Assembly: GCA_017517665.1 (NCBI GenBank)
Contig: JAFWYP010000045.1
Span: 1-45,440, forward strand
Source: Clostridia bacterium
GTDB lineage: Bacteria; Bacillota; Clostridia; Oscillospirales; Acutalibacteraceae
Length of the DNA: 45,440 bases
Reading direction: 5' to 3'
In this document: positions 1 to 18,102 of the stretch, in pieces
Numbering within the stretch: the first letter of the stretch is position 1
How the letters are laid out: each line of letters starts with the position of its first letter
Notes under the pieces: generated by a model
What the model was told of the DNA's origin: nothing
Seen by the model: the letters and a program-made list of their open reading frames with translations, nothing else
Databases searched by the model: none
Program-made: the position numbers and the translations under genes

Positions 1-267
1 GATTTTTCTGTAATAATCGTTTCCAACTCCTGCAATGCTAACCCGATGTCAGATGGTAAAGCTTTGCCTTTTACCACTAAAGCCAACAAGCAACTTCATG
101 GTTACGGATTAAAAAGTGTCAGAAATACCCTCAAAAAATATAACGGCGATATATCGTTTGATTATGATGAAAAAGAAAAAGTTTTTGTTGTGACGGTTAT
201 GGTTGGAAAACAACTCGGGGATATTCTTTATTTCAATTATTCCGACTCGACGGGTTTTATTATATGA
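1..267 (+). pseudogene. Sensor histidine kinase, C-terminal GHKL ATPase fragment (5' end outside window, 3' end probably replaced)
   Basis: The frame is open from base 1 and gives 88 residues. The G2-type ATP-binding motif HGYGLKSV followed by KKYNGDISFDYDE and an alternating hydrophobic strand (VFVVTVMV) is typical of the GHKL domain of AgrC/ComD-like peptide-sensing kinases. In that family the protein ends a few residues after this last strand. Here the frame continues for about 20 more residues (GKQLGD... to FII) that are simply the antisense of the neighbouring minus-strand gene, so the natural stop has probably been lost at a junction near base 205-215. Partner regulator and peptide genes are not in the window. 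Family assignment is fairly sure; specificity is unknown. Confidence 0.75.
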
Positions 268-810
268 ATATAATTCAATTATAGCCTTGTTACAATATTG
301 TTCAATAATAGGCTCAAGAGTTAAAAGCTCATTATTGTTTACAATGTGTTTTGAAAAACAATCCGGACAAAAACTGAAATGAGGTGGAATGATTTTAGCG
401 ATGTTTTTTTCGATCAGTCCAGAATATAAATATATCAAAGTATAGTCACTAATTAAATCACGTCTATAGAAAACTTCATCTTTTTCTATAATACTAATTG
501 GACGTGGATTTGCAATTGAATTTACAATAAAATAAACTGTATCACCATAAAGGCTAATAAATTTATTGAATCTATCGGCTCTTTCAATTTTGCAGTTCAG
601 TCCAGAACACCCTCCAAAACCAGATAAATCCATAGAGGGAGCAAATGAATATGGAGAATAATCTGCAATACACCAATCTTTATAAGCCAAATCTCGCATA
701 TACTTATCAAAAGACATAATTGTATCAAGATTATTTTTCATAAAATAACGCTTGATTTTTTCGGAACTTACAAGATCCAGTTCTCTCATATAATCAATTA
801 TTCTACTCAT
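109..810 (-). CDS. Hypothetical protein, C-terminus probably aberrant
   Basis: The ORF has 233 residues from ATG at 810, which follows AAAGGA at a suitable distance; an upstream in-frame TTG is less likely. I do not recognise the family. It is soluble, rich in Tyr, Ile and Asn, and contains a C-P-D-C pair (FSFCPDCFSKH) and a C-S-G-L-N-C pair that could bind metal. The last 35 or so residues are Asn/Phe/Ile-rich (for example NFFFFIIIKR) and are encoded by the antisense strand of the histidine kinase gene, so the true C-terminus was probably near residue 200 and has been replaced by read-through. A good promoter lies directly upstream, so the gene may be expressed alone. Confidence 0.55.
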   Translation of the reverse strand: MSRIIDYMRELDLVSSEKIKRYFMKNNLDTIMSFDKYMRDLAYKDWCIADYSPYSFAPSMDLSGFGGCSGLNCKIERADRFNKFISLYGDTVYFIVNSIANPRPISIIEKDEVFYRRDLISDYTLIYLYSGLIEKNIAKIIPPHFSFCPDCFSKHIVNNNELLTLEPIIEQYCNKAIIELYSYNKTRRVGIIEIKNIPELFSNHNRHNKNFFFFIIIKRYIAVIFFEGISDTF

Positions 811-2250: not shown

Positions 2251-2258
2251 AGAAGCTC

Positions 2259-3656
2259 CTAAAAATTGAAATATAAGAACGGATTGTAGGATGCATCAAC
2301 AAGATATGCGATGCAGGTTGCCATGCCGACCGCTTCGCCTGCAATCTGAACTGCACCGAGTTTGTTGTTTGCAAAAAACTTCTTGCAGATTTTCATTGGT
2401 ATACCGCTTGCAACAACAGCCGCAACTATGATTATGACTGCATAATTGTGAAGCATATTGAGGGTTGAAATGTCAAAGAATGCACCCGATGCGCCGAACA
2501 TTGAACCGATGAATTCAAGCTCAGCGGCAGGGGAGGAGATTTCAAAAATAACCCATCCGATAACAACCATCAGCAGAGTATATGTTCTTGTGACCGCAGC
2601 AGGAAGTTTATCGATTACCTTTGCGAAAACAAACTTTTCAAGAATCAGGATGATTCCGTAATATACGCCCCAGATAATGAAGTTCCAGCTCGCACCGTGC
2701 CACATACCTGTAAGGAACCAAACAATAAGCAGGTTTCTGATTGTTCTGAATTTGCCGTTTCTGCTTCCGCCAAGCGGGAAGTAAACATAGCTCTTGAACC
2801 AGCCGCCGAGGGTCATATGCCATCTGCGCCAGAATTCGCTGACTGTTTTTGATATGTAAGGATAATCAAAGTTTTTCGGGAAATTGAATCCGAGCATTTT
2901 GCCCATACCGATTGCCATATCGCTGTAGCCCGAAAAATCAAAATAAATCTGAAGTGTGAATGCGATTATGCCGAGCCATGCCGTTGCGGCGGGGAGGGTC
3001 GAATAATCGCTTGCTTTGACTGTTGTCCACAGCTCGCCTACGGAGTTAGCGATAAGAACCTTTTTGCATAGACCGCAAATAAAAACCGAAATACCGTTGC
3101 TTATTGAATCAATATCGATTTTTCTGTTTTCGAGCTCTCGTGCAACATCATCATAAAGCACAATCGGTCCCGCAACAATCTGAGGAAACATCGTAACGAA
3201 TGCCGCAAAATTGATAAAGTTTTTCTGCACCTTGATATTGCGTCTGTAAAGGTCAATTGTGTAGGACATTGACTGGAAGGTGAAAAAGCTGATACCGATG
3301 GGAAGCGGAAGATTCGGATTGTTCATAACGTTGCCGAATACCGAGTTTATGCTTTCAACGAAGAAACCGCTGTATTTGAACACTCCAAGAAGCGAAAGAT
3401 TCATTACAACGGAAACTATCAATGCAACTTTTCTTATCGATTTGTTGCTGTCAAATTTGTCCATAACTCTGCCGGCACAGTAGTCAATGAGAGTAGACAA
3501 AATCATTATAAGCACATAAACCGGTTCGCCCCACGCATAGAAGAGCAGACCGGTTAAAAATAAAACTGCATTTTTGAACCTGAACGGTACCGCATAATAA
3601 AGCAGTAACGCAACAGGTAAAAACATAAATAAAAATACAGGCTCGGAAAAAACCAT
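2259..3656 (-). CDS. MBOAT family O-acyltransferase (AlgI/DltB-like)
   Basis: The protein has 465 residues with about ten or more hydrophobic segments, the usual length for AlgI-like MBOAT proteins. Family signatures include YFDFSGYSDMAIG, the segment EFWRRWHMTLGGWFKSYVY, PLGGSR, and MWHGASWNFIIWG, whose His is the expected active-site residue. MBOAT proteins move acyl groups across the membrane for acetylation of an exported polymer. It lies between the DUF4358 lipoprotein gene and the DHHW gene in one operon. Start ATG 3656 follows CACGGAG. Function class is sure; whether the target is exopolysaccharide, teichoic acid or peptidoglycan is not. Confidence 0.92.
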   Translation of the reverse strand: MVFSEPVFLFMFLPVALLLYYAVPFRFKNAVLFLTGLLFYAWGEPVYVLIMILSTLIDYCAGRVMDKFDSNKSIRKVALIVSVVMNLSLLGVFKYSGFFVESINSVFGNVMNNPNLPLPIGISFFTFQSMSYTIDLYRRNIKVQKNFINFAAFVTMFPQIVAGPIVLYDDVARELENRKIDIDSISNGISVFICGLCKKVLIANSVGELWTTVKASDYSTLPAATAWLGIIAFTLQIYFDFSGYSDMAIGMGKMLGFNFPKNFDYPYISKTVSEFWRRWHMTLGGWFKSYVYFPLGGSRNGKFRTIRNLLIVWFLTGMWHGASWNFIIWGVYYGIILILEKFVFAKVIDKLPAAVTRTYTLLMVVIGWVIFEISSPAAELEFIGSMFGASGAFFDISTLNMLHNYAVIIIVAAVVASGIPMKICKKFFANNKLGAVQIAGEAVGMATCIAYLVDASYNPFLYFNF

Positions 3657-3673
3657 AGTTAAACTCCGTGAAA

Positions 3674-4138
3674 TTAATCGGCAACAGAATCAGCAACAGC
3701 CTTAACGTTTTCCGCATTGTTGCAGATGCAGAGAATAACGGTGTTGCCTTCGGTAATTACAGCGGCGGATTCGATTTTCGGAATTTCCTGAGGGCCGTAG
3801 CTGCTGTAGCCTTCGTGAAGATAATCAAGTCTTGATTCAACGGCTTCTGCAACGCTGCTAACCGCATTTTCGTCAACGCAGTTAAAAACAGCGATTTCGT
3901 CAGCGGTTGCACCGCTTCCGCTGTAGAACGCGGCGTCTGTGCAAAGAGCAGAATCAATACCGTAGATGCTGTAGGCTATATCGGCAGTGCTTTTTTCAAG
4001 CTCTTCACCGAATTCGAGATTTGCATTGAGCGCATCTGCAACTGCGTTTGCTTCATAAAATTTTGCTTTGTTGTCAGCGCATCCCGCAAAAGAAAAAATA
4101 AGCGCAAATGCAATAAGGAAAGAAAAAATCTTTTTCAT
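3674..4138 (-). CDS. DUF4358 lipoprotein
   Basis: The protein has 154 residues. It starts with a lipoprotein signal (KKIFSFLIAFALIFSFAGC) with the acylated Cys at residue 20. The body matches my memory of DUF4358: a YGID segment, then ATADEIAVF, then a final GNTVILCICNN strand. These proteins recur beside SGNH/MBOAT genes in Clostridia, but their role is not known to me. It starts 4 bases after the SGNH hydrolase stop, with a GGTGG ribosome site, so translation is probably coupled. It probably sits on the outer face of the membrane with the acylation machinery. Confidence 0.75.
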   Translation of the reverse strand: MKKIFSFLIAFALIFSFAGCADNKAKFYEANAVADALNANLEFGEELEKSTADIAYSIYGIDSALCTDAAFYSGSGATADEIAVFNCVDENAVSSVAEAVESRLDYLHEGYSSYGPQEIPKIESAAVITEGNTVILCICNNAENVKAVADSVAD

Positions 4139-4141
4139 AAA

Positions 4142-5122
4142 TTAACCACCCGTTTTATAGATAATTTTATCGGCAAGTCTGATAATCCAGGCTTTTGCAT
4201 ATTTTTTGTTAAGATGAATGCCGTCGCTTGCGGCTTCGGGAATGAGAGTGCCGTCTTCAGCTTTGAGAACTTCGGGCTGAGCAATAAAGTGTATTCCCTC
4301 TTTTGCGGCAAGCTGTTCGATTCGGATGTTAAGTGCGTTGATGTTGGTGTTGTTGCAACCGAATTCGTTTGTTGCCGAAGCGTTCACACTGACAGGAAGA
4401 ACAGCGTGAAGATATATCTCCGCTTTGGGAAGTCTTTCTCTGACAGCGGCAATAACCTTTGAATACTTAACAACAAAAGAATCATAACTTGACCATCCGC
4501 ATTCGTTATCGCCAAACATCAGAACGACTTTTTCAAAATCCTTGCCGTTAAGCTCGTCAATAACCGTAACGGTGCTTCCCGCAACTGTTTTTGTAAATAC
4601 CGTATCAACATTAAGACCGACAACAGCGTAAACATTTTTTGCAAGACCGTAATTCTTGAAAGAAATGAATCTTGAATTGCCGATGAAAACAGTAGAATCA
4701 AAACAGCTTGAATCATATTCACCGTTAATCGGTTTTGTTATGGGCGCGGCGGTTGTTGTTTCAGGTCTGAAATCGGGAATTTGAATTGTAGGAACGGGAA
4801 TTGTGAATGGGAGAGTTCTGCCCTGAGTTGCAGCAACGGTTGTTTCCGAAGCTGTGGTCCTGACAGAAGTTTCTTTTGCGGCTGTTGATTTTTCTGTTGA
4901 TGAGAATATTGCTGTTGAAAGAGCTTCCGTAATCTTTTCCGTAAGATTTGTTGTAGTTGAGAGCGGCTGCCAAACCGTTTTTGTTGACTCTGCAGAAACA
5001 GTTGTTCCGCTGGTTACGGTTGTTTCGGAAACCGCTACGGGTAAAGAAATTTTCGAAGCGGCAAAGCCGAGTGCAGCTATTACCGCAACGGCTGAAATGA
5101 TATATATTAATTTGTTTTTCAT
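4142..5122 (-). CDS. Membrane-anchored SGNH/GDSL hydrolase with Thr/Ser-rich linker
   Basis: From the second ATG (MKNK, 5122) the protein has 326 residues; an upstream ATG at 5149 is an alternative, and neither ribosome site is ideal. A signal anchor (residues 4-22) is followed by about 100 residues rich in Thr, Ser and Val, likely a wall-spanning stalk. The C-terminal SGNH domain shows block I (IGNSRF, Ser near residue 149), block III (GDNECGW near 205) and block V (DGIHLN near 301). It is the first gene of a four-gene operon behind the promoter at 5165-5193. It probably acts as acetyl-esterase or acetyl-transferase on the same exported polymer as the MBOAT and DHHW proteins. Confidence 0.85.
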   Translation of the reverse strand: MKNKLIYIISAVAVIAALGFAASKISLPVAVSETTVTSGTTVSAESTKTVWQPLSTTTNLTEKITEALSTAIFSSTEKSTAAKETSVRTTASETTVAATQGRTLPFTIPVPTIQIPDFRPETTTAAPITKPINGEYDSSCFDSTVFIGNSRFISFKNYGLAKNVYAVVGLNVDTVFTKTVAGSTVTVIDELNGKDFEKVVLMFGDNECGWSSYDSFVVKYSKVIAAVRERLPKAEIYLHAVLPVSVNASATNEFGCNNTNINALNIRIEQLAAKEGIHFIAQPEVLKAEDGTLIPEAASDGIHLNKKYAKAWIIRLADKIIYKTGG

Positions 5123-5164
5123 TGTTAAATATTTCACCTTGAATCTCATAATAATCCAAAATGT

Positions 5165-7544: not shown

Positions 7545-8957
7545 TTATGAAATTGTATCTTGTGTGAGCTTTTTGTCTTTTTCTTTGGTGCTTTCTGCAG
7601 AGCTGATGCCAAGAATCACTTCTGTATTTGATTTATGAATAAGCAACTCACGATGCTCGTCTTTGAGTGAGCGATACTCGGTATATGCTTTGTCTTTTTT
7701 ATCTGACAGTTCTGCATATTCTTTGTTAATTGATTTGATGTCGGGTAGTTTTTTTATACCAAGTTCATCAAACTTTTTCTTTGCTGCACGATGTAAAATG
7801 ATTTCAGATTCGTGTTCAGCAAGAAACTTTTTTGAATATCCCGAAGCCTTATATTGAGCAAAAATCTTACGAGTATTGTGATAATTTATTATATGTTCAC
7901 GAAGAACTTTCAATTCTTTTATTCTTTTTTCTGACGAGCGAATTTCTGTCATTAGTTCATTTATGCGAGAAGTCATATCGTCAGTTTTTTTAGCAAGTTC
8001 ATCGTAATCTGAAAAGCCGTTTTCCTGCAAATACAACACAGTCTTTGCCATTTGTTTCAGATTAAAGATCTTTGCCCAATTCTCGTAACCTTTGCCTTTT
8101 CCTTCGGCTATTTTCTGCTGAACATCAATAAGAAGATTTGTTTTTTGCTTTCCATTCTTCTTTTCTTTTTGTGATTTAGTCTTTCCATTTGTTCTTATTA
8201 TTGACTTGATTTCTTCCTCTGAGTATCCGGTGCCGAGAGAGCGTAATCTTATATTCTTCTTTTGCCTTGAGTGAGAGAATGAGATATGTTTACCAGATTT
8301 AATTGTGTAACCTTTTTCTATCATCTGTGAAATAAAATCGTCAAAATCTTTCGGCTTGTTTTCCAACACTTCATCAATATCTGCTCGGAGTAAATCACGA
8401 AGGGAGGAATACTTTTTGTATCCCTCCCAGTGATTATATGCTGTATTTCTTTTCTGTGGTTCTGTAACAACAGACAGTTGATGTTCAATGCAAATCAAAT
8501 CACTTAATCGTGCAATATGTTTTATTGAACGTATCTTATTCCGATACTTGCGTTTACAATCCAGCGACGTTGAGTTGAAATAAATATGATTGTGAATATG
8601 TGATTTATCAACGTGAGTTGCGACAACAAAAGCATAATTACCTTTAAGCAATCTTTCCGCAAGTTCATATCCGATTTTGTTGGCTTCTTCAGGTGTGATT
8701 TCTCCCGGTGCAAAAGACTGTCGGAGCTGATAAGCAATAACATTATTTTTTTGAGTTCGGCCCGTAAACTGTGCATACTGTTTTTTTGATAATGCAAATT
8801 GAGCAACAGCTGTTTCAGGCTCACAAGCGAACGAAGAAACAAATCTTCCTTCATCCGTTTTTAGAGGGTTCAATCCGTAATCAATTCGGTCTGAAAGGCT
8901 GCTTGAAATCTTATATCCTTTGGTTGCGTGAATAGGCATAATTCTTGTTACTGCCAT
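7545..8957 (-). CDS. MOBP-type relaxase / mobilization nuclease (Tn1549 type)
   Basis: The protein has 470 residues. It would nick oriT, bind the 5' end covalently and lead the strand into the recipient. The N-terminal nuclease domain shows an early Tyr segment (RIDYGLNP, near residue 25, a likely catalytic Tyr) and the histidine motif THVDKSHIHNHIYFN near residue 130, which binds the metal. The C-terminal half (from about residue 270) is Lys/Glu-rich and coiled-coil-like. It starts directly after the stop of the CD1845-like gene with GGAGAGG upstream, so the two are coupled. MobC, its usual neighbour, is 7 kb away. Length and motifs indicate an intact gene. Confidence 0.92.
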   Translation of the reverse strand: MAVTRIMPIHATKGYKISSSLSDRIDYGLNPLKTDEGRFVSSFACEPETAVAQFALSKKQYAQFTGRTQKNNVIAYQLRQSFAPGEITPEEANKIGYELAERLLKGNYAFVVATHVDKSHIHNHIYFNSTSLDCKRKYRNKIRSIKHIARLSDLICIEHQLSVVTEPQKRNTAYNHWEGYKKYSSLRDLLRADIDEVLENKPKDFDDFISQMIEKGYTIKSGKHISFSHSRQKKNIRLRSLGTGYSEEEIKSIIRTNGKTKSQKEKKNGKQKTNLLIDVQQKIAEGKGKGYENWAKIFNLKQMAKTVLYLQENGFSDYDELAKKTDDMTSRINELMTEIRSSEKRIKELKVLREHIINYHNTRKIFAQYKASGYSKKFLAEHESEIILHRAAKKKFDELGIKKLPDIKSINKEYAELSDKKDKAYTEYRSLKDEHRELLIHKSNTEVILGISSAESTKEKDKKLTQDTIS

Positions 8958-9254
8958 TTAATAAATCCTCTCCGTAAGCCATTCTTTGAGAATAATAAAT
9001 TTTGATAAAATCCAAGTGGCGAACATAGGAATTCCCCAAGGACTTAACAAATACGCAACAAGTAATACGAGTAAACCGTCTTTGATGGTTTCTGTAATCA
9101 AAAAGAAAATTGCAACAATCAAAAGGATAAAAGCGATTATGCAGAATACCCAAGATGCTATACTGATAACAAGAGAAAAGATTCCTATGAACACAGTGAG
9201 TAAAAGCCAAATGGGTGCAACCAAAATCATAAGAAAAAATTTAAGAATTTTCAT
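8958..9254 (-). CDS. CD1845-like small membrane protein
   Basis: I chose ATG 9254 (MKILKFF) because CGGAGG precedes it; upstream codons run through a terminator. The 98-residue protein is almost wholly hydrophobic, with about three membrane segments (FFLMILVAPIWLLLTVFIG; an Ile/Val-rich centre; GLLVLLVAYLLSPWG) and a charged end. It matches the small membrane protein normally found just before the relaxase in Tn1549-like elements. Its job in transfer is unknown. Its stop codon touches the relaxase start. Confidence 0.75.
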   Translation of the reverse strand: MKILKFFLMILVAPIWLLLTVFIGIFSLVISIASWVFCIIAFILLIVAIFFLITETIKDGLLVLLVAYLLSPWGIPMFATWILSKFIILKEWLTERIY

Positions 9255-9294
9255 AACATTAACCTCCGTTTCAAGATAATGATAGAATAAAAAA

Positions 9295-9322
9295 AGAGTT
9301 CTGACAAGGATGTCAAAACTCT
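9295..9322 (-). terminator. Rho-independent terminator after the 79-residue gene
   Basis: Arms 9295-9306 and 9311-9322 pair over 12 positions, with one G-U in the minus-strand RNA, and a T7 run follows on the minus strand. The right arm overlaps the last codons of the gene ending at 9313. Confidence 0.8.
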
Positions 9323-9552
9323 GTGTTCTTTTTTCGTTTTTCCGCTTCACAAAATATCTTTTTTATATTTTCATCAATTTGTTCCTGAGTAAGTCGAGGC
9401 AACTCCAGAATTTCGTAAAGCCAATCTACGCATTCGGTTATAAGACCGTCATCCATATCTGTATAAGGCTTTGCGCTTTCATAATATATGATAGCTTCAA
9501 GACGATCAACTAATTTAATTTCATCCGCAGTTAAATCATTTTTATTCCGCAT
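9313..9552 (-). CDS. Small acidic hypothetical protein
   Basis: From ATG 9552 (MRNKNDL; GGTGA lies before it) the protein has 79 residues. It is helical and acidic, with segments ADEIKLVDRLEAIIYYE, DWLYEILELPRLT and EQIDENIKKIF. I do not recognise a named family. It lies 50 bases after the SLOG protein gene and ends inside a terminator, so it is likely the last gene of that short transcript. Confidence 0.6.
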   Translation of the reverse strand: MRNKNDLTADEIKLVDRLEAIIYYESAKPYTDMDDGLITECVDWLYEILELPRLTQEQIDENIKKIFCEAEKRKKNTEF

Positions 9553-9602: not shown

Positions 9603-10082
9603 TCAACTGAAAACATCTGCTATGTTAATAATCCGCAAACCATTGTCTTTTGCATAGCTTACAGTATAAGCTGTGCCGCCTTGTTGCTCTGTCAAAAAAC
9701 AAATGCAAGCAGAACTGTTGTTTACAAGATGTCGGTTTCTTAGGTGCATACAGTCATTTGTATATTGCTTTGAAACATAAACAACTTTATCGGCAGAGTT
9801 TTTTATTTTTTCGTAAATTTGTTTATCTTCAAACTTCCAATTTCTCGTTTGTGATAAACAAGGCAAAACGAGTATTAGACGAATGAACGGGTATTTTTTT
9901 CGGAGCTTTATGACAGAGATTGCTGCTATTGTATCGAACCCCAATGCACCGCCTGAACCAAAATAGCAATAACCCTCTTTTATAAGAGTTTCTATTGCTT
10001 TTTCCGTTTCGATATAAATATCAGAAATGAAAGTCGAAGGTATTTTTCTGTGACCTGAAAAGCAACAAGTTTTTGATTTCAT
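9603..10082 (-). CDS. SLOG-domain protein (DUF1273/YpsA-like)
   Basis: The protein has 159 residues and is one complete SLOG domain. Evidence: the N-terminal CCFSGHRKIP segment, the glycine loop YCYFGSGGALGFDTIAA (nucleotide or ligand binding), LILVLPC, and a C-terminal GGTAYTVSYAKDNG. SLOG proteins bind nucleotide-derived ligands, and some work in defence signalling, but this stand-alone type has no proven role. The start follows GGGAGC. A perfect 9-base inverted repeat at 10096-10116 lies just upstream and may be an operator. Confidence 0.85.
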   Translation of the reverse strand: MKSKTCCFSGHRKIPSTFISDIYIETEKAIETLIKEGYCYFGSGGALGFDTIAAISVIKLRKKYPFIRLILVLPCLSQTRNWKFEDKQIYEKIKNSADKVVYVSKQYTNDCMHLRNRHLVNNSSACICFLTEQQGGTAYTVSYAKDNGLRIINIADVFS

Positions 10083-10205: not shown

Positions 10206-10547
10206 TCACTTTGTACTTTTGCTTAAAAATGCTTCAAGAATAGCAAAGGCTTTTTCCTTTTCTTCTTTCGGTAATCCTTCAAGGAGATCAGATAAACGAG
10301 AAGATTTTACTTTATAACCGCTCTCAATAACATCGGCAAAAACATCATCTGCCGTACATCCCAATGTGTTAATAATTAAAACCAACTTATCAAGACGAGC
10401 AGAGCTTTTGCCTCTTTCAATATCAGAAATATAGTTTGTTGATAAGCCTATTTTTTCTGCGAATTGTTGTTGTGTAAAACCCTTGCTTTTTCTAATAATT
10501 TGAATACGTTTGCCGATAATCTGTTCAACAGTTTTGTTGTTCTTCAC
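10206..10547 (-). CDS. XRE-family transcriptional regulator
   Basis: I chose GTG 10547 (VKNNKTVEQ) because GGGGGTG lies 6 bases before it; an ATG at 10592 has no ribosome site and lies inside a palindrome. The 113-residue protein has an N-terminal Cro/C1 helix-turn-helix: IGKRIQIIRKSKGFTQQQFAEKIGLS, then TNYISDIERGKSSARLDKL. The C-terminal half is helical (GLPKEEKEKAFAILEAFL). The palindrome at 10582-10600 overlaps the -10 box of its own promoter, so self-repression is likely. It may control the ICE cargo or transfer genes, as such regulators often do. Confidence 0.85.
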   Translation of the reverse strand: MKNNKTVEQIIGKRIQIIRKSKGFTQQQFAEKIGLSTNYISDIERGKSSARLDKLVLIINTLGCTADDVFADVIESGYKVKSSRLSDLLEGLPKEEKEKAFAILEAFLSKSTK

Positions 10548-10581
10548 AGAAACACCCCCATTCATTCGATTATCGTAACCA

Positions 10582-10604
10582 CTAATGCTCATAGCATTAG
10601 TATA
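10582..10604 (-). promoter_or_regulatory. Promoter -10 box overlapped by a perfect palindrome (probable XRE operator)
   Basis: CTAATGCT and AGCATTAG (10582-10600) are perfect 8-base arms around a 3-base centre. On the minus strand the box TATACT (10599-10604) overlaps its edge by two bases. The -35 region is weak. A bound repressor would block this promoter of the XRE gene. Confidence 0.55.
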
Positions 10605-10757: not shown

Positions 10758-11237
10758 TTATTTGTTTGTGACCGTAATACCGATAACCGCAACAGTATCG
10801 CTTTGAGAAATTGTAATGATGATGTTGTCTTTTGTGACTCCTTTAAAATTTAAAATAGGATAGTCATTTTTATCATACACATCATATAACTGTTTTGTTA
10901 TTCCATTTTCTTCAAGAGTAGATATATAATTCTGAGTTTCAACTAAATTTATATTCTTAACCTTGAAAGAATAGTGAGAATTCTTTTTGTTACTATCAAA
11001 AGAAACATAAATAGTTTCTTTTGATGTGGGTTTGGGAATATTTTTATACAAATACTCACTTTCGCAAAGTTCACCCTGTTGAAGCGAAAAAGAATAATCT
11101 TCTACATTGCTTTCGGTTGTTATGTTTCTTACAGTTAGATTACTTGTTGAACAAGATGCAGTACAGATTACAACAGCAAAAACTAAAAAGAAAATTTTAG
11201 AAAAGCTAACCGTATATTTAAGGAATTGTAATTTCAT
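10758..11237 (-). CDS. Putative lipoprotein of unknown function, end of the sigma/protease cassette
   Basis: I chose ATG 11237 (MKLQFLKY), because it gives a lipoprotein signal (FFLVFAVVICTASC) with the acylated Cys at residue 25. This start overlaps the end of the preceding gene by 20 bases. The mature part, of a 159-residue precursor, has Ser/Thr-rich N-terminal sequence and a beta-rich body ending in IIITISQSDTVAVIGITVTNK. I know no family for it. Its place after four secreted-protein genes suggests that it works at the outer membrane face, for instance as an immunity or chaperone partner of the secreted protease. Confidence 0.6.
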   Translation of the reverse strand: MKLQFLKYTVSFSKIFFLVFAVVICTASCSTSNLTVRNITTESNVEDYSFSLQQGELCESEYLYKNIPKPTSKETIYVSFDSNKKNSHYSFKVKNINLVETQNYISTLEENGITKQLYDVYDKNDYPILNFKGVTKDNIIITISQSDTVAVIGITVTNK

Positions 11238-11823
11238 ATGCACTTGCAAATTCTCCATAACCTGATTCAATATTTGCTCCTGTAGCCCATCCTGCAACGG
11301 ATACCTTACCTTCAGTTCCGCTTGCAGCTTTGTTTCCCATTTCGACATCGGTGGAAATGGTTTTAGCTTGGTTTGCCAATTTAGCAAACGCTTTAGTAGT
11401 TGTTTTTTGAGCTAAAGTAACTGATACAGCGCCTTCCATTGCTGTGAATTTGGGATTTGCGAAATAGTACCAAGGAACATATAATTCAACATGTACTGAA
11501 ACGCCATCGTCCTCGTCATATGTTGCATATGAACGACACCACACTCTTGCTGAGAATAAACCTCTTGCATTGCCGATAGAATTGGACAACTCCGACATTG
11601 GTGCATCAATTCCGCAAAGAATTATAGCACCATCTTCCGTAGCCGCTTCAAGTTCCTCTGCTGAGAAATAATCTCCATTATTAATTTCTTCAGCAGAAAG
11701 GTAATACTCACTATCGGGTGTAATAACATCCTCAGTTTCTGTTGTTGAAGCAAAAGAAGTCATAGATAATGACGAGAACATGCATAACATTATAAGGATA
11801 CACGAAGTTATTTTTTTAAACAT
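11218..11823 (-). CDS. Secreted protein of unknown function
   Basis: The protein has 201 residues with a clear signal peptide (KKITSCILIMLCMFSSLSMTSFAS, cleavage near residue 26). After an acidic stretch (about residues 28-70), which may be a propeptide, comes a region ARVWCRSYATY...VELYVPWYYF, then an Ala/Thr/Lys segment (TLAQKTTTKAFAKLANQAKT), and a Gly/Ala-rich end. I do not recognise it. The ribosome site is AGAGAGG, and a promoter-like pair lies upstream (11866-11894), so it may be expressed more strongly than its operon. It could be the protease's substrate, inhibitor or a secreted effector. Confidence 0.6.
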   Translation of the reverse strand: MFKKITSCILIMLCMFSSLSMTSFASTTETEDVITPDSEYYLSAEEINNGDYFSAEELEAATEDGAIILCGIDAPMSELSNSIGNARGLFSARVWCRSYATYDEDDGVSVHVELYVPWYYFANPKFTAMEGAVSVTLAQKTTTKAFAKLANQAKTISTDVEMGNKAASGTEGKVSVAGWATGANIESGYGEFASAYEITIP

Positions 11824-11865
11824 TTTAAAAACCTCTCTAGTAATATTTTAATAATTGATACCTAA

Positions 11866-11894
11866 AGTATAAAACAAATTTGCCCTAATTCTAA
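11866..11894 (-). promoter_or_regulatory. Possible internal promoter before the 201-residue secreted protein
   Basis: On the minus strand, TTAGAA (11889-11894) and TATACT (11866-11871) are 17 bases apart. The -10 is good and the -35 weak. Confidence 0.3.
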
Positions 11895-11907
11895 ATCAAA
11901 TCACAAT

Positions 11908-12072
11908 TTAATCAAGACAGGCGAATACCGCAAAGTTAAACATTAATACAAAAAAAACAGATGAAATTACCTTTGCTACTATTTTGGATGGTTTGTTATT
12001 TACAATGCAATCAATAGTCCAAAGCAGTGAAACTATAAAAAGCACAGAAAAAGGAATAAATAAAAATAGCAT
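11908..12072 (-). CDS. 54-residue two-helix membrane peptide, coupled to the upstream secreted-protein gene
   Basis: The start ATG (12070-12072) immediately follows the stop of the 271-residue gene, and AAGGAG lies 10 bases before it, within that gene's last codons. The peptide begins MLFLFIPFSVLFIVSLLW, has a short polar loop with NNKPSK, and then a second hydrophobic segment (VISSVFFVLMFNFAVFACL). The codon pattern, spacing and topology argue that it is real. It could be an immunity, holin-like or export-helper peptide for the secreted proteins around it; none of these is proven. Confidence 0.5.
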   Translation of the reverse strand: MLFLFIPFSVLFIVSLLWTIDCIVNNKPSKIVAKVISSVFFVLMFNFAVFACLD

Positions 12073-12888
12073 TTAATAATCATCTCCTTGGTAAGTACCA
12101 CACTGTAGCGGATACCTAGTAAATATATCCTCAAATGTAAGTGAAACTCCTCCTATATAGCTTACCCCAACGCTAATAGGAAGTGGTAAAAATTTATGGA
12201 AATACAATAATGTAATCGTATTTTCGTCGCTACTGTTTACAATACTGTATGAAACCAAAACAGAAATACTATCGACACTACTTGGTAAATCAAACTCAAA
12301 AACGCATGCGGTTTCTTCACCTTTGTAATTATCATCATTTTCGTCGAAATTTTCATACTCTACAGTTCCGTTTTTTTCATAATAAAGACACAGTTCTGGT
12401 GACTCTTCGTCTATGCTTCCGGCACCAAGATAAACAGAAATAATATCATCATCTCTTACTGTCGGTAAATCAAGCCATTCAGCACTTCCCAAAATTGTGT
12501 ATTCATTTCCGGTTTTTCCCCAAAGTATTCCTAAATGAATAACATCTCCATGATCCTTTCCTGCACTACCATTAGCTCTTGCCGAATTATTAAAAGCAGC
12601 ATTTTCCGAAACATCTGAACATCCAAATTCATCAGCATTTATAAGTTTATTGAGCAACTCATTGCTTATCATATTTACATTAACATTAGCTCCTATTGTT
12701 TCAAAGACATCATTCAGATATTCAATTTTTTCTTCCTGTAAGGCAAAATTGTAATTTTCTTTCATATTGACAATTTCTTCTTCGGAAAGGACAGTTATAT
12801 CATCTTTGGGTGTTGATGTGGCATTGGAATTAAAGTAACAGTTAAAGAACAACGAAACACATATTAATAACGAGATTAATTTTTTCAT
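12073..12888 (-). CDS. Secreted protein of unknown function
   Basis: The protein has 271 residues with a signal peptide (KKLISLLICVSLFFNCYFN, cleavage near residue 23). An acidic helical N-terminal part (about residues 30-90) may be a propeptide. The rest is beta-rich and acidic, with HGDVIHLGILWGK, GSAEWLDLPTVRDDDIISVYLG and a C-terminal CGTYQGDDY. No family is known to me. It lies between the secreted protease gene and a coupled 54-residue membrane peptide, an arrangement like that of an exported effector and its accessory protein. Confidence 0.6.
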   Translation of the reverse strand: MKKLISLLICVSLFFNCYFNSNATSTPKDDITVLSEEEIVNMKENYNFALQEEKIEYLNDVFETIGANVNVNMISNELLNKLINADEFGCSDVSENAAFNNSARANGSAGKDHGDVIHLGILWGKTGNEYTILGSAEWLDLPTVRDDDIISVYLGAGSIDEESPELCLYYEKNGTVEYENFDENDDNYKGEETACVFEFDLPSSVDSISVLVSYSIVNSSDENTITLLYFHKFLPLPISVGVSYIGGVSLTFEDIFTRYPLQCGTYQGDDY

Positions 12889-12955
12889 GTTGTTTTACTC
12901 CCATTTTAAAAAGTTTTGTTGAATTAGCGGTAATATTGTTCTCTGTTTCAAAAAA

Positions 12956-14095
12956 TCAAACATAATAATAAAGTCTTGTTGTATATACCCAATAGAAAGT
13001 GAAACTACCGATTCTATACTGACAACCATTCACAGAATCATAAGTCATAAGTTTGATTGTTTCCAGCATCGGACACATATATCTTACCTCAAAGGTTGAA
13101 CCGACAATTCTGTATCCGCAAAGAGCCGTACAGTGTTCTTCAATCATATGATGATCTGGAAGTGCAAACATACAAGCAGGGTCATTGTTTTGAATAACCG
13201 CTTTAACTTCATTTTGAGTTAAAGGAGCATAAATTGTAGTCGGTGCATAAATACTTGGAAGATAAGCTTCGAGTATGTCGATAACATCTTCCGGCTGACC
13301 CATTGTATAGGAATGACCTATTGTATTGCAAGCTGCTGTTGCATAAAGTTCGGGGTACTGAGAAGGCATTTCATACATAATCATTGATGCTGCAACCGCC
13401 GCCCAACATATGCTGTAGTTACCTTGAAATACAATAGGATAATCCAAGAAATTATATTCTCTTGTTGCAGGAAGAGTAGCAGAAGGAAGCGTATACTGTT
13501 CTGAATACATTTCATTGGCTGTTATTGTGTTGTTGGAACGACAAGCATCCGAATAAGTACGCTTGTTTTTTGAGGCAAATGCAACCGATTCACTCGGAGC
13601 ATCAAAGACAATCCTGCTTATTGATGATGAATCTACGGCAATAATATCCATATTTTCTGAAACAAGTGCAACGTTACCGTTTGAAGATTTCATAATCAAG
13701 TCAAGCTGTTCAGCAAAATCTATACCTGCTGTGCAATTAAAGCGACCATTTTCTTTGATGATTGTAAAAATGGCAATAATATCACCGCTTGAAATCAAAG
13801 GTATATACACAACATCTGATACTGATTCATATTCATTTTCTTCGTTCAATTCTGCAATCGAAAATGTTTTTCCAAGATATGCGTCAGATACTTCAGCTTG
13901 TGTAAGACCAATATCTTCAGGGAATGATTTTACAGAAAGCATCAAATCTCCCAAAGAGCCATCCATAAGATTTTCAATGTCCTGTACTGTAATTGTATTA
14001 GCATAGCCTACCGCATTCGCAGTGTAAGCCGGTATTGACATAATAACAGCTATGGCAAGAATAATCGAAAACAATTTACGAACGATATTTTTCAT
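12956..14095 (-). CDS. Secreted papain-like cysteine protease (staphopain/C39-like)
   Basis: I chose ATG 14095 (MKNIVRKL) because AAAGGG lies 8 bases before it. The 379-residue protein has a signal peptide (residues 4-28), a probable propeptide (about 30-180) and a C-terminal papain-fold domain. Active-site residues are visible: oxyanion Gln224 and Cys230 in FQGNYSICWAAVAASM, and His321 in EEHCTALCGYRI. This spacing matches staphopain-type and other bacterial papain-like peptidases. It is 47 bases after the anti-sigma gene and probably part of the sigma-controlled operon. The substrate is unknown; the secreted neighbours are candidates. Confidence 0.78.
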   Translation of the reverse strand: MKNIVRKLFSIILAIAVIMSIPAYTANAVGYANTITVQDIENLMDGSLGDLMLSVKSFPEDIGLTQAEVSDAYLGKTFSIAELNEENEYESVSDVVYIPLISSGDIIAIFTIIKENGRFNCTAGIDFAEQLDLIMKSSNGNVALVSENMDIIAVDSSSISRIVFDAPSESVAFASKNKRTYSDACRSNNTITANEMYSEQYTLPSATLPATREYNFLDYPIVFQGNYSICWAAVAASMIMYEMPSQYPELYATAACNTIGHSYTMGQPEDVIDILEAYLPSIYAPTTIYAPLTQNEVKAVIQNNDPACMFALPDHHMIEEHCTALCGYRIVGSTFEVRYMCPMLETIKLMTYDSVNGCQYRIGSFTFYWVYTTRLYYYV

Positions 14096-14142
14096 ATCTA
14101 TATCCCTTTCTATAGTCAAGCATCACACTATACAAGGTGTTG

Positions 14143-15405
14143 TCATAAAATTTGTTCAACGATATAATATATTAAGTTTTTAGTGTTTTCGGTTTTATCT
14201 GCATAAACCGTACTGTGCCCATCAGGACTGTAAATATAAAAATACTTGTCCATAAATACAATTTCAACAGAAGAACCGTCAGAATGATTTAACTTTACAC
14301 TATAATTACCCCCAAATCCTTTTTGATAATCAACAGCTTCGGTATAACTGATGCTTGAAATATATGTCAAAACTTTTTCTTTTTGTTCTTCGCTTGCCGT
14401 TATCGGCTTTTGACCAAGAAGTAAACGTGTTCCGCTGTTAATTTCAATTGAAGATATTTCTTTGTTTAATACATCCTCTAATTTTAAATCAATTATTTCT
14501 GAACTGTTCGTAATAGTGACAACATTTGAATTGTTGGTCATTGGTTCTTTTAGATTATCGGTTGTTTTGGTTGTACTGGTAGTATCGTTGTTTGACGTTT
14601 CAACATTTGCATCTAAATCTAATTTCGTCACATCAACAACAACATAGTTATTTTCGTCATTCAGAATTTTCCAAGAATAAACATTGTACTCTGTTTTGAA
14701 TTTGTTGTAATAATCAACATTTTTATCAAGCGGTAAAGTGACAGGGGATAAAAGTTGATATACTTTGTTATCGGGTGTTATGGCTATTTCTTTATTAAGT
14801 CCGACACAGAAAAATGCCAGTTCGCTGTCGGGGTTCTCTTTAAGGGCATTTGTCAATCTGTCCCATGTATCGCCGTGTGCTGAAGTTGTATACTTTATTT
14901 CACCGTCTACTTTGAACAATGAAACAGAACCGACAATTTTATCATCTATCATAATCGGAAGAGTAAGATTATCGAGTATTATCTTGTTTGTTTCGCCCAA
15001 ATAGACTGGACTGTAACCCTTTGTTGCGATTTTTATGGGTTTATCAAATATCTGATATTCTAAAGCTGTATTACCGGCAATTATATCTTTGTTTTCTTCG
15101 ATAAACACTCTTATTTCTTCATCGGTATAAGCTGAATTTTCAAAAACAATTTCACCGTCACTTATAGAATTAGAACTGTTATTTCCTCCAAACTGTATGC
15201 TTGGATTTGTGGTGGATTCGATAATGGGTCGGCTTGTTCCTTTTACACCGAGGATAACAGCGGTTAATACTATTGCAAACGCAGCAGCAACCGCCATATA
15301 TTTATAAATTGACAATGATTTTTTACTGCTGTTATTTGAATGAGCATTTGAAATCAAATCATCATCAATCAAGTTGATTGCTTCATTTAAAATGTTGTTA
15401 ATCAT
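14143..15405 (-). CDS. Membrane anti-sigma factor-like protein
   Basis: The protein has 420 residues: a cytoplasmic N-terminus of about 33 residues, one membrane segment (YMAVAAAFAIVLTAVILGV), and a 360-residue outer part. The outer part has an alpha/beta domain (about 90-265), a Thr/Asn/Ser-rich linker and a second beta-rich domain to the end (IEINSGTRLLLGQKP... to YYIVEQIL). It overlaps the ECF sigma gene by 4 bases, which is the usual coupling of a sigma/anti-sigma pair. It probably holds the sigma factor until an outside signal, perhaps proteolysis, releases it. The assignment rests on topology and position, not on a recognised domain. Confidence 0.7.
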   Translation of the reverse strand: MINNILNEAINLIDDDLISNAHSNNSSKKSLSIYKYMAVAAAFAIVLTAVILGVKGTSRPIIESTTNPSIQFGGNNSSNSISDGEIVFENSAYTDEEIRVFIEENKDIIAGNTALEYQIFDKPIKIATKGYSPVYLGETNKIILDNLTLPIMIDDKIVGSVSLFKVDGEIKYTTSAHGDTWDRLTNALKENPDSELAFFCVGLNKEIAITPDNKVYQLLSPVTLPLDKNVDYYNKFKTEYNVYSWKILNDENNYVVVDVTKLDLDANVETSNNDTTSTTKTTDNLKEPMTNNSNVVTITNSSEIIDLKLEDVLNKEISSIEINSGTRLLLGQKPITASEEQKEKVLTYISSISYTEAVDYQKGFGGNYSVKLNHSDGSSVEIVFMDKYFYIYSPDGHSTVYADKTENTKNLIYYIVEQIL

Positions 15406-15959
15406 AAATTGTATCCCTCCTGTTCAAGAAATCGCTTCAGCTTTTTTCTCATTTCAAACAGAATATTTGAAACCTTCTTCTCTTTAAAGCCATAATCGGC
15501 GGCTATGTCTTTTACAGATTCATAATACCAATAACGACGGACAAATATGTTTCTGTTGGTTTCACTCTGTTCTCTTAAAAATCTGCTGATAATTTTACCA
15601 AGTTCAGCTGTATCATAGTTTGTTTCTGTATCTGTTGATGAAGATAAGCAATCCTGCAATTCATTAAGAGAAACAAGCATTTCGGGTTTTCTTTTCTGTG
15701 CCGAAATATGTTCTAATTTTTTGAATGACAGATTTTTGACTATTCTGCATAAAAAGGCTGAAAAATTATTCGGTCTTTCATCGGGTATAGAGTTCCATAC
15801 CGTCAAATATGAATCATTTACACATTCCTCGGCATCGCAAACATTATTCAGAATGTTGTTTGCCAAGTGATTACAAAGCTTACCGTATTTTATATCAGTT
15901 TCTTTTATTGCGTTTTCGGAGCGTTCCCAATACAAACTGATTATTGATGCATCGTTCAT
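15402..15959 (-). CDS. ECF-type RNA polymerase sigma factor
   Basis: I chose ATG 15959 (MNDASII) because GAAAGGAG precedes it. The 185-residue protein has sigma-70 region 2 (NNVCDAEECVNDSYLTVWNSIP and FLCRIVKNLSFKKLE) and region 4 (FVRRYWYYESVKDIAADYGFKEKKVSNILFEMRKKL), with a variable acidic linker. It is first in the cassette that continues with the anti-sigma gene and the secreted protease, and a terminator separates it from mobC upstream. It likely drives its own operon; I could not identify its promoter motif with confidence. Confidence 0.9.
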   Translation of the reverse strand: MNDASIISLYWERSENAIKETDIKYGKLCNHLANNILNNVCDAEECVNDSYLTVWNSIPDERPNNFSAFLCRIVKNLSFKKLEHISAQKRKPEMLVSLNELQDCLSSSTDTETNYDTAELGKIISRFLREQSETNRNIFVRRYWYYESVKDIAADYGFKEKKVSNILFEMRKKLKRFLEQEGYNL

Positions 15960-16069
15960 TGCGTTCTCCTTTCTTTTCGAGGTCCTCAACTATATGTACG
16001 ATTATTTTGCCGAATTACTTAAAAGTTTTTTAAAAAAACTTTTATTTCATACTTAATAATAATAAAAAA

Positions 16070-16099
16070 GTAACGGTATTGCAAATGCAACACCGTTAC
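16070..16099 (-). terminator. Rho-independent terminator after mobC
   Basis: Thirteen-base arms (16070-16082, 16087-16099) contain one G-U in the minus-strand RNA and are followed by a T-rich run on the minus strand. It separates the transfer operon from the sigma-factor cassette. Confidence 0.85.
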
Positions 16100-16130: not shown

Positions 16131-16472
16131 TTAAGTTTTTAATTCCGTAATCAATAAAACTATCTGATTAATCTTTTCCCATAGCTTCGACTGACTGTAT
16201 TGAATTTCTTTGATTTCATTACCATAGATTTTGTCTGTGGAGTTAACTTTTTTTGCAATTTGGTTTATGTTGTTGCTTGTTTTGCGAAGTAATGATATGA
16301 GTTCATCGAGTTCGGGTATGTCAAAATTTATAACATACCCGTCAATAGCCATTTTGCGGATAAAAGCACTCATATTTTCACAGTTATGTAGCTGCATTTT
16401 TTCCTTTATCAGTTTAAGTTCATCATTACTGAGCCTAATATGAATATCACGAGATTTACTGCTTTTATCCAA
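16131..16472 (-). CDS. mobC: MobC relaxosome accessory protein
   Basis: I chose TTG 16472, which lies one base after the previous stop and 7 bases after AGGTG; the longer frame to 16541 only overlaps the upstream gene. The 113-residue protein has a ribbon-helix-helix-like N-terminus (RDIHIRLSNDELKLIKEKM), then the MobC signature NMSAFIRKMAIDGYVI and SLLRKTSNNINQIAKKVN. MobC proteins bind oriT and help the relaxase open the DNA. In related ICEs it directly precedes the relaxase; here a terminator and about 7 kb of cargo lie between them. Confidence 0.88.
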   Translation of the reverse strand: MDKSSKSRDIHIRLSNDELKLIKEKMQLHNCENMSAFIRKMAIDGYVINFDIPELDELISLLRKTSNNINQIAKKVNSTDKIYGNEIKEIQYSQSKLWEKINQIVLLITELKT

Positions 16473-16473
16473 A

Positions 16474-18102
16474 TCAAAGCACCTGGTCTTTCTTCTTCGG
16501 AGCAGTAGAAGCAGGTGCGATATTATCTTTTGCAGATTCAAGTTTTTTTAAAACAGAAGGTTTCTTTTCGGAACGTTCTGTTTCTATTCTTTTTACTTGT
16601 CTGACAAAAATATCTGTAAGTCCGGGATTAACACCGTCAACAACAAGAGATAAATCAATCTTATCTTTCACATCATTCGGGCGGACTGTTTTTGCCCAAG
16701 CTTTATTCTCAGGCGATATTCTTCCGTCATAATCTTTTACGATACAAGTAAGAGCAAGAATTTTCTTCACACGGTCAAGACCGAAATTTTCGACAACCTT
16801 TTTCGCTCCTTCGGGGTCAAGTCTGCACTCTGAATAGTTATCATTGATAGCAGCCTCAATAGCAGTTTTGCACATATTGTCTGCTCTTGAAGAAAGTCTG
16901 TAAGCTGAAATTTCTTCTCTATCTCTTGCTTCTGAAAAAGACTTTTCATAAAGTGGGAATTTACTCGGATCGTTATACGGAATCGCCTGAATTTCACCGT
17001 CGAGCATAAAGAACATTTCGGGTTCTGCGAAATGTTCCGAATATTTCTCAATCTGTTCGGGAGTAAGGGAGCAGAAATCTTCTTCACCAAGTCCCACAAC
17101 AAGGAATGTTCCCGAAACAATATCGTAGATGCTGTTTTCATCGTCACGCAAAGCACGGTTTAACTGCATACCGTTTATTTTTCCGTTGTCATTACAAACA
17201 ATACCAACTGGTTCCTCAAACGGGTAAATAGCTTGAATAGGTTCACCTACCTGATTATATAGACTGTCAAGACCAGCGGGTATAGTTACAACAGACGGTT
17301 TTTCTCCCGGCGCAACAACGAGAACCGTCAATGAGTTCTCTGTTTGCTTTTCAAAATTATGCTCTGCTGTTTCCGTTATTGTATCTCTTAAAGTCTGCAT
17401 ATAATCTGTTTCTTTGTCCGCAAACATTTCATAAACTTCCTGCAGCGGTGAAGGTGAATCCATCAATGCTTTCATAAGATTATCTGAAAGTTCAACTTGC
17501 TCGAGGGCAACAAGAATATCCTCACGAACTGTAAATTCGTAAGTGTGACTTAAAATTTCTTCGGGTTGCTGTTTCATAAGCCATTCTCTGTAATTCTGCT
17601 GTTCTGCGTGCATCATATCATACAGAGTGCTTTTCAGTTCTTCTGTACCCATATCTTTACCTCCTATTTCATTAAGATGTTTTTCAAACGTTTCACGAAC
17701 ATAAGCATAAACATAAAAGTTGTAATCGCCTTTGGTGGGATTGCATCTCAAAATGTAGCTGTGTTCATCGGTATCAACTCTGAAACCGTATTCTTTGGTA
17801 TAGTTACCTTCGATAACTCCATCGGGATTGTTGTGACAATAAGCAGAAAGAGAGCTTCTGTCTTTCAGAAGCTCTCCATAACCGAATCGCAAAGAATTGA
17901 TAACATCATCAAATTCTCTTTTGAATTCATCTGTTTTTAAAAACTTTACTTTATCTTCCCAAGTAGAGTAAAAACCTTTGCCGCTTGTGTCAAAATCCCC
18001 ACGGAGAAAACCGATACAACCGCTTTCTACATAGTCATTCTGCGACTGCTTATATGAAAACGGTATTTCTTCAAGCTTAATAGGTCTAATTGATAAATCC
18101 AT
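16474..18102 (-). CDS. Multidomain ICE protein with DUF3848, DUF3846 and DUF3849-like regions
   Basis: The protein has 542 residues and four parts. Residues about 1-150 contain YGELLKDRSSLSAYCHNN and a beta segment. About 155-245 resembles DUF3848 (AEQQNYREWL, EEILSHTYEFTVREDIL). About 255-370 is DUF3846 (VLVVAPGEKPSVVTIPAG, YPFEEPVGIVCND, NRALRDDENSIYDIVSGTF). About 385-470 resembles DUF3849 (YRLSSRADNMCKTAIEAAI, DGRISPENKAWA). The end is Lys/Pro-rich. None of these domains has a known function; they recur beside the methylase/helicase giant of Tn1549-like ICEs. It ends one base before the mobC TTG start, so translation is coupled. Confidence 0.75.
   Translation of the reverse strand: MDLSIRPIKLEEIPFSYKQSQNDYVESGCIGFLRGDFDTSGKGFYSTWEDKVKFLKTDEFKREFDDVINSLRFGYGELLKDRSSLSAYCHNNPDGVIEGNYTKEYGFRVDTDEHSYILRCNPTKGDYNFYVYAYVRETFEKHLNEIGGKDMGTEELKSTLYDMMHAEQQNYREWLMKQQPEEILSHTYEFTVREDILVALEQVELSDNLMKALMDSPSPLQEVYEMFADKETDYMQTLRDTITETAEHNFEKQTENSLTVLVVAPGEKPSVVTIPAGLDSLYNQVGEPIQAIYPFEEPVGIVCNDNGKINGMQLNRALRDDENSIYDIVSGTFLVVGLGEEDFCSLTPEQIEKYSEHFAEPEMFFMLDGEIQAIPYNDPSKFPLYEKSFSEARDREEISAYRLSSRADNMCKTAIEAAINDNYSECRLDPEGAKKVVENFGLDRVKKILALTCIVKDYDGRISPENKAWAKTVRPNDVKDKIDLSLVVDGVNPGLTDIFVRQVKRIETERSEKKPSVLKKLESAKDNIAPASTAPKKKDQVL

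Follow-up and report, generated by a model that had tools for sequence, protein, structure and literature searches.

The stretch of DNA considered here (contig JAFWYP010000045.1 of the Clostridia bacterium assembly GCA_017517665.1, family Acutalibacteraceae; 45,440 nucleotides, hereafter the window) is a conjugative element with a relaxase, a coupling protein and a type IV secretion ATPase, its recognizable genes including those for the relaxase, MobC/NikA, T4SS-DNA_transf (coupling protein), a TraG-like P-loop ATPase, TrbL, a topoisomerase and an NlpC/P60 protein. Between mobC on one side and the relaxase gene on the other lies a module of 7 genes, all on the minus strand from 15959 to 10758, encoding an extracytoplasmic function (ECF) sigma factor, a predicted membrane anti-sigma factor, a predicted secreted staphopain-like cysteine protease zymogen, a secreted protein of 271 residues, a 54-residue membrane peptide, a secreted protein of 201 residues and a lipoprotein (Table 1). 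An earlier sequence-only reading of this DNA had described a complete sigma/anti-sigma pair leading into a secreted protease, followed by secreted proteins, a coupled membrane peptide and a lipoprotein, all carried by a mobile element, and our analysis recovered each of these genes at the same coordinates and strand. The strongest clue to the logic of the module is absent from that reading: the anti-sigma ectodomain and the propeptide of the adjoining protease are homologous.

The genes are tightly packed, with successive intergenic distances, from sigma factor to lipoprotein, of -4, 47, 67, 0, 84 and -20 nucleotides, and a terminator scan of the minus strand found none within the run. They are likely to form a single operon, because the promoter element described below has no sites on the coding strand before the protease gene or the genes for the 271- and 201-residue secreted proteins. 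Two diverged versions were also recovered from metagenomes: the longest contigs of protease cluster P0002 and anti-sigma cluster P0018 both measure 5738 bases, and those of protease cluster P0003 and anti-sigma cluster P0017 both measure 9093 bases. We read these equal sizes as linkage of protease and anti-sigma genes, and the gene chain as more than a chance arrangement.

Table 1. Coordinates of the module, its predicted elements and its neighbours in the window.
Feature	Position	Strand	Remarks
ECF sigma factor, 185 residues	15402..15959	-	Sigma70_r2 and TIGR02937 above cut-off
Membrane anti-sigma factor (predicted), 420 residues	14143..15405	-	4-nucleotide overlap with sigma gene; pair conserved in L027-L030
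Predicted transmembrane helix, anti-sigma residues 34-54	15244..15306	-	Helix in model (low confidence there) and hydrophobic sequence
Anti-sigma ectodomain 1, residues 80-262, propeptide-like sensor	14620..15168	-	
Anti-sigma ectodomain 2, residues 303-420	14146..14499	-	
Secreted staphopain-like cysteine protease zymogen (predicted), 379 residues	12956..14095	-	
Protease propeptide	13463..14002	-	Aligned to prostaphopain B proregion (model from residue 35, chain from residue 50); secondary structure
Protease catalytic domain	12959..13462	-	Gln/Cys/His kept, third catalytic position Cys
Third catalytic position	13073-13075	-	
Secreted 271-residue protein	12073..12888	-	No Pfam/NCBIfam match above cut-off, no PHROG match
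54-residue hydrophobic membrane peptide	11908..12072	-	Start abuts stop codon of 271-residue gene; ribosome site AAGGAG
Secreted 201-residue protein	11218..11823	-	Acidic N-terminal region
Lipoprotein, 159 residues	10758..11237	-	20-nucleotide overlap with 201-residue gene
Predicted autoregulatory ECF promoter element TCGTACATATAGTTGA	15986..16001	-	CGTAC core; conserved before close sigma genes
Terminator-like site	16070..16099	-	Just upstream of module; shuffles of the region average 3.1 such sites, hence weak alone
MobC/NikA	16131-16541		
Helix-turn-helix gene	10206-10592		
YpsA SLOG-family gene	9603-10082	-	
DUF5699 gene	8958-9350		
Relaxase	7545-8957		
DHHW, MBOAT acyltransferase and GDSL-type genes	1141-5149	-	

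The structural model of the protease displays the whole staphopain zymogen fold, propeptide and catalytic domain together, as in prostaphopain B (1x9y), from which the protein differs in its low identity (13-15%) and in a Cys at the third catalytic position. The Gln, Cys and His that the sequence-only reading had judged intact are indeed invariant in all 15 close relatives, with Cys and His also invariant across a wider set of 14. The replacement at the third position, which that reading did not mention, is shared with P0001-P0003 (MCP), and the other 11 relatives have Asp (10, in MDP) or Glu (1); Asn or Asp is the third catalytic residue of this clan. The Pfam family PF05543 matches neither the window protease (E up to 1) nor the 14 rows of our wider protease profile, A3, and among the relatives L129 reaches it (22.9 against a cut-off of 22.6). 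Because the window protein does not match PF05543 we call it staphopain-like instead of filing it in family C47, of whose Cys/His/Asn catalytic residues it has the Cys and His, with Cys in the third place. No staphostatin-like protein was recognized among the neighbours, which look like secreted, lipo- or membrane proteins, fall below all Pfam cut-offs and whose folds were not predicted.

The anti-sigma factor is coupled to the sigma gene, has a predicted membrane helix and belongs to a conserved pair; it is predicted to inhibit the sigma factor. Profile comparisons (hhalign with shuffled controls, and HMMER) unite its first ectodomain with the propeptide of the adjoining protease, a homology of the kind known for Spi. 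The relationship is visible to profiles only, a plain BLASTP comparison of the two proteins being non-significant (E 0.15), and searches of PDB sequences with the protease and with the anti-sigma profile returned nothing usable (best E 0.25). We also considered whether the second ectodomain is related to the lipoproteins beside the protease of locus L070, and set this aside as too weak (hhalign score 18.7 against 17.6 for the best of 60 shuffles).

The 185-residue protein is an ECF sigma factor by its sequence, comprising sigma-70 regions 2 and 4 only: Sigma70_r2 (PF04542) scores 32.8 bits against a cut-off of 24 and TIGR02937 scores 62 against 42.9, with region 4 (PF04545) at 19.7, below its cut-off of 24.1. 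A CGTAC core lies 43-46 nucleotides from the end of the start codon in 6/6 close relatives (the window, L027, L043 and L028-L030). It is missing before four more distant sigma genes (L037, L038, L039 and L042), two of which carry CGTATAAT. Only two copies of the exact pattern YCGTACWWATNGTTGA, itself derived from these sigma genes, exist in the genome, one in front of the sigma gene of the module and the other in front of the paralogue on contig 37. When as many as three mismatches are allowed, the window has 14 sites where 7.6 are expected, a number reached by 4 of 100 shuffles. We predict from these patterns that the CGTAC element is an autoregulatory promoter driving one transcript. A wider regulon was sought and rejected: genome sites with up to two mismatches (57) were little above the chance level set by a reversed control pattern (41), and none of 7 sites inspected by eye resembled a promoter before a credible gene. 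The contig 37 paralogue (L043, 9240-10936) is paired with an anti-sigma factor that shares only its first ~68 residues with that of the window, which suggests that ectodomains are swapped between paralogous pairs.

Gene order, sigma family, the fold of the protease model, the homology of sensor and propeptide and the conserved element before close sigma genes are established. Since the anti-sigma factor shares homology, in its outer domain, with the protease's own propeptide, we tentatively propose, with a little less than even confidence, that it serves as a receptor for the mature staphopain-like protease and, after binding it, frees the sigma factor, in the manner of RsiV. The zymogen would be exported and lose its propeptide, whereupon the free catalytic domain would dock on the propeptide-like sensor. 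Docking or cutting might then expose the anti-sigma factor to regulated intramembrane proteolysis, and the released sigma factor would fire the CGTAC promoter before its own gene and read through the operon. Propeptide from newly made zymogen could compete with the sensor, rendering the loop self-limiting, and the protease would have the 271- and 201-residue proteins and the lipoprotein as its outputs or partners.

Elements of this proposal have precedents. In Bacillus subtilis RsiV is reported to bind and inhibit lysozyme, this binding triggering sigma-V (PMC5014341), and by analogy a membrane anti-sigma ectodomain binding an enzyme to release its sigma factor is what we envisage here. RsiV senses lysozyme through an ectodomain of DUF4163 and DUF3298, whereas the candidate ligand here is encoded in the same gene run; neither domain was matched in 28 members of our anti-sigma family at E up to 5, and these are thus not anti-sigma factors of the RsiV type. 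RsgI6 of Clostridium thermocellum is described as carrying a GH10 module that is close to Xyn10D, and sigma-I6 as activating the Xyn10D promoter (PMC4711584); the similarity is that the circuit includes an enzyme to which the ectodomain is related. The RsgI module is, however, a part of the enzyme that binds polysaccharide, and the module here is the inhibitory propeptide of a protease. Finally, inhibitors encoded beside papain-fold proteases, as proposed here, are reported for SpeB, which has a separate propeptide analogue, Spi (PMC2873492), and for staphopains, which are inhibited by staphostatins (PMC7863939); unlike the sensor, Spi and staphostatins are separate proteins and not part of a sigma-factor regulator. 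No description of a zymogen propeptide on an anti-sigma factor was found in targeted searches of an open-access library, a result with little bearing on subscription journals.

Several observations weigh against the receptor proposal, the chief doubt being that the sensor domain is common in a genus where the protease is not. Sensor-bearing anti-sigma matches occur in 19 of 45 genus genomes, the window's own included, and all 18 others cover the sensor region. No protease was found in stretches from 16 of these 18, the genomes covered by wide stretches (G323 and G338 being left out). Many genus genomes are incomplete. Profile A1 found no other catalytic-domain match in the whole genus, and with profile A3 the only other match touching the catalytic domain is in G336 (profile positions 167-249). 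The sensor domain is hence not tied to this protease. Nor is the homology itself uniformly recovered: the sensor hidden Markov model fails to reach 7 of 12 zymogens below E 0.05, the propeptide profile does not match the window's anti-sigma factor, though it matches relatives of that protein, and Pfam Staphopain_pro matches 0 of 28 anti-sigma proteins. The AlphaFold2 model of the anti-sigma factor is of moderate quality (predicted local distance difference test 71.3, with low-confidence stretches at residues 46-78 and 265-302) and has no Foldseek match below 0.001; the VIA range of 1x9y on it, 92..366, extends beyond the sensor domain. To these may be added the Cys at the third catalytic position, which makes the activity of the protease, as judged from its sequence, uncertain.

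A rival explanation is that anti-sigma factors of the genus use the propeptide-like domain as a general fold for extracellular sensing of some other ligand, and that the protease is a cargo gene that came under the regulator. The sensor is present in 19 of 45 genomes and the protease in 1, and the pairs in L027-L030 lack a neighbouring protease, as this explanation would have it. It leaves unexplained why a homologous domain should sit on the adjoining protease, although a common fold inherited by both would suffice. We regard it as a substantial possibility, if somewhat short of probable. A further alternative, in which the protease performs the site-1 cut in the ectodomain of its own anti-sigma factor and the sensor serves as substrate or brake, draws on the operon order and on the long low-confidence stretches of the anti-sigma model, and is improbable given that related pairs exist without a protease gene.

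The tallies on which these comparisons depend were obtained as follows. With profile A3, 37 of 45 genus genomes were matched at 69 places (best 44 candidates per genome at most): the window over the full length of the profile, L150 in the anti-sigma sensor (positions 74-202), G336, and the rest within positions 1-133, which cover signal and early propeptide and were not counted as proteases. Three A1 matches in the genus outside the window were likewise dropped, two being anti-sigma sensor domains and one the start of an 845-residue frame. After sensor-domain and signal-region matches are set aside, the protease is found in 1 of 45 genus genomes (its own). Of 300 family genomes 2 have a match, one of them weak and lying in a frame interrupted by stop codons. 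Scoring the best 4-5 candidates per genome gives lower bounds of at least 8 of 394 genomes for the order and, for the class, searched with the wider profile A3, at least 50 of 391, own included in both, many weaker class-level matches covering only the N-terminal signal region. The GTDB contigs yielded one distant relative (L003), viral contigs none, and a plasmid search at E 1e-5 had no match for the protease or the anti-sigma factor.

The 271-residue protein is very rare: a search of 5.8 billion proteins gave 4 clusters, of which one is 99% identical to that of the window, and the protein occurs in 1 of 300 family genomes (its own). The 201-residue family occurs in 3 of 300 including its own, with a 44% relative in G119 that has no sigma, anti-sigma or protease match within the surrounding 16 kb. 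A weak match to this family in L055 (8091-8408, minus strand) lies opposite a 1368-residue frame and may be spurious. The lipoprotein is present in 3 of the 45 genus genomes, its own among them, and homologues of the 54-residue peptide, sought only at the relatives' loci retrieved for comparison, were not found. In L027 (454-2756, near a contig end, its neighbours being serine-pathway-like genes as judged by eye) a 66% relative of the lipoprotein immediately follows the anti-sigma gene. Because this locus runs sigma, anti-sigma, lipoprotein without the middle four genes, the protease, 271-, 54- and 201-residue genes resemble a cassette lodged between the anti-sigma gene and that for the lipoprotein. 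A reading of the gene set as one fixed system is not supported: sigma/anti-sigma pairs occur without a protease (L027-L030), the lipoprotein directly after its pair (L027) and the 201-residue family alone (G119).

The layout was further examined at 12 loci whose protease is as long as a zymogen or nearly so (the window, L003, L069-L073 and L126-L130), leaving out propeptide-less short proteases (L131-L134) and broken or partial matches (L002, L065, L067 and L074). At 3 of them (the window, L069 and L128) an ECF sigma and anti-sigma pair precedes the protease on its strand at a distance of no more than about 0.7 kb, a count that is suggestive only, there being no background rate for sigma genes at random loci and L070 and L073 being short contigs. 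L069 (6127-10323) has an ECF sigma factor above Pfam cut-offs, a DUF4367 anti-sigma factor, a 147-residue secreted protein and then a staphopain-like zymogen; at L128, DUF4367 is present and the sigma and anti-sigma genes are both split across frames. L003 has a sigma fragment on the opposite strand, and a sigma profile search of L131-L134 found nothing. In this light the signal-gated exported protease of the sequence-only reading is supported in part: the regulatory pair, secreted zymogen, partners and lipoprotein on a conjugative element stand, and the layout returns at L069 and L128, in distant genomes whose sigma and anti-sigma factors are of other types.

By inspection, a secreted, lipo- or membrane-anchored protein adjoins the protease at 10 of the 12 loci, with none at L129 and L003 unclear. 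The partner proteins are mostly unrelated by BLASTP between loci, apart from a small secreted family common to L069 and L128 (E 4e-6), perhaps also L131 (E 0.008), and a repeat-bearing C-terminal part common to L069 and the same-genome locus L073. A relationship of the 201-residue family to the small secreted proteins of L069, L128 and L131 was considered and rejected (probability 0.2). Such neighbours might speak for the proposed module for antagonism, surface remodelling or support of mating, with secreted proteins that are matured by the protease and membrane members that confer immunity; we consider this quite unlikely, as the partners mostly differ between loci, the 201-residue family also occurs alone and no defence family of weight was matched. 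PADLOC gave no match of weight for the seven proteins, its lone weak hit, of the 271-residue protein to Cas6b (E 0.004), being taken as chance, and PHROG none for the five tried (the sigma factor and the 54-residue peptide were not run). Pfam and NCBIfam gave nothing above curated cut-offs for the six proteins other than the sigma factor, including the 271-, 201-, 159- and 54-residue proteins for which profile searches had been suggested.

Some observations concern the surroundings of these loci. At L069 a secreted protein with weak matches to choline-binding repeats follows the zymogen, and at L131 (5093-8075) a short propeptide-less staphopain-like protease lies amid four other predicted secreted proteins. 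Behind the module in the window are a helix-turn-helix gene, a YpsA SLOG-family gene, which adjoins it, and a DUF5699 gene. Elsewhere on the same element, DHHW, MBOAT acyltransferase and GDSL-type genes constitute a cargo resembling cell-surface acylation systems.

Returning to the receptor proposal, a bolder extension, which we consider rather doubtful, is that zymogen prodomains became transmembrane protease receptors, that a whole anti-sigma lineage senses papain-fold proteases by means of a staphopain-type propeptide, and that the element packages receptor and protease as a self-sensing, spreadable circuit in which the enzyme is an intercellular signal. For most ECF/anti-sigma systems the signal is, to our knowledge, not known. 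Should propeptide-like ectodomains be the mark of protease receptors, the signals of many orphan anti-sigma factors in the genus would become testable. The module would then represent a secreted protease that regulates its own operon and is carried on a mobile element, and might illustrate a general rule, whereby the inhibitor domain of an enzyme can be transferred to a membrane regulator for sensing that enzyme.
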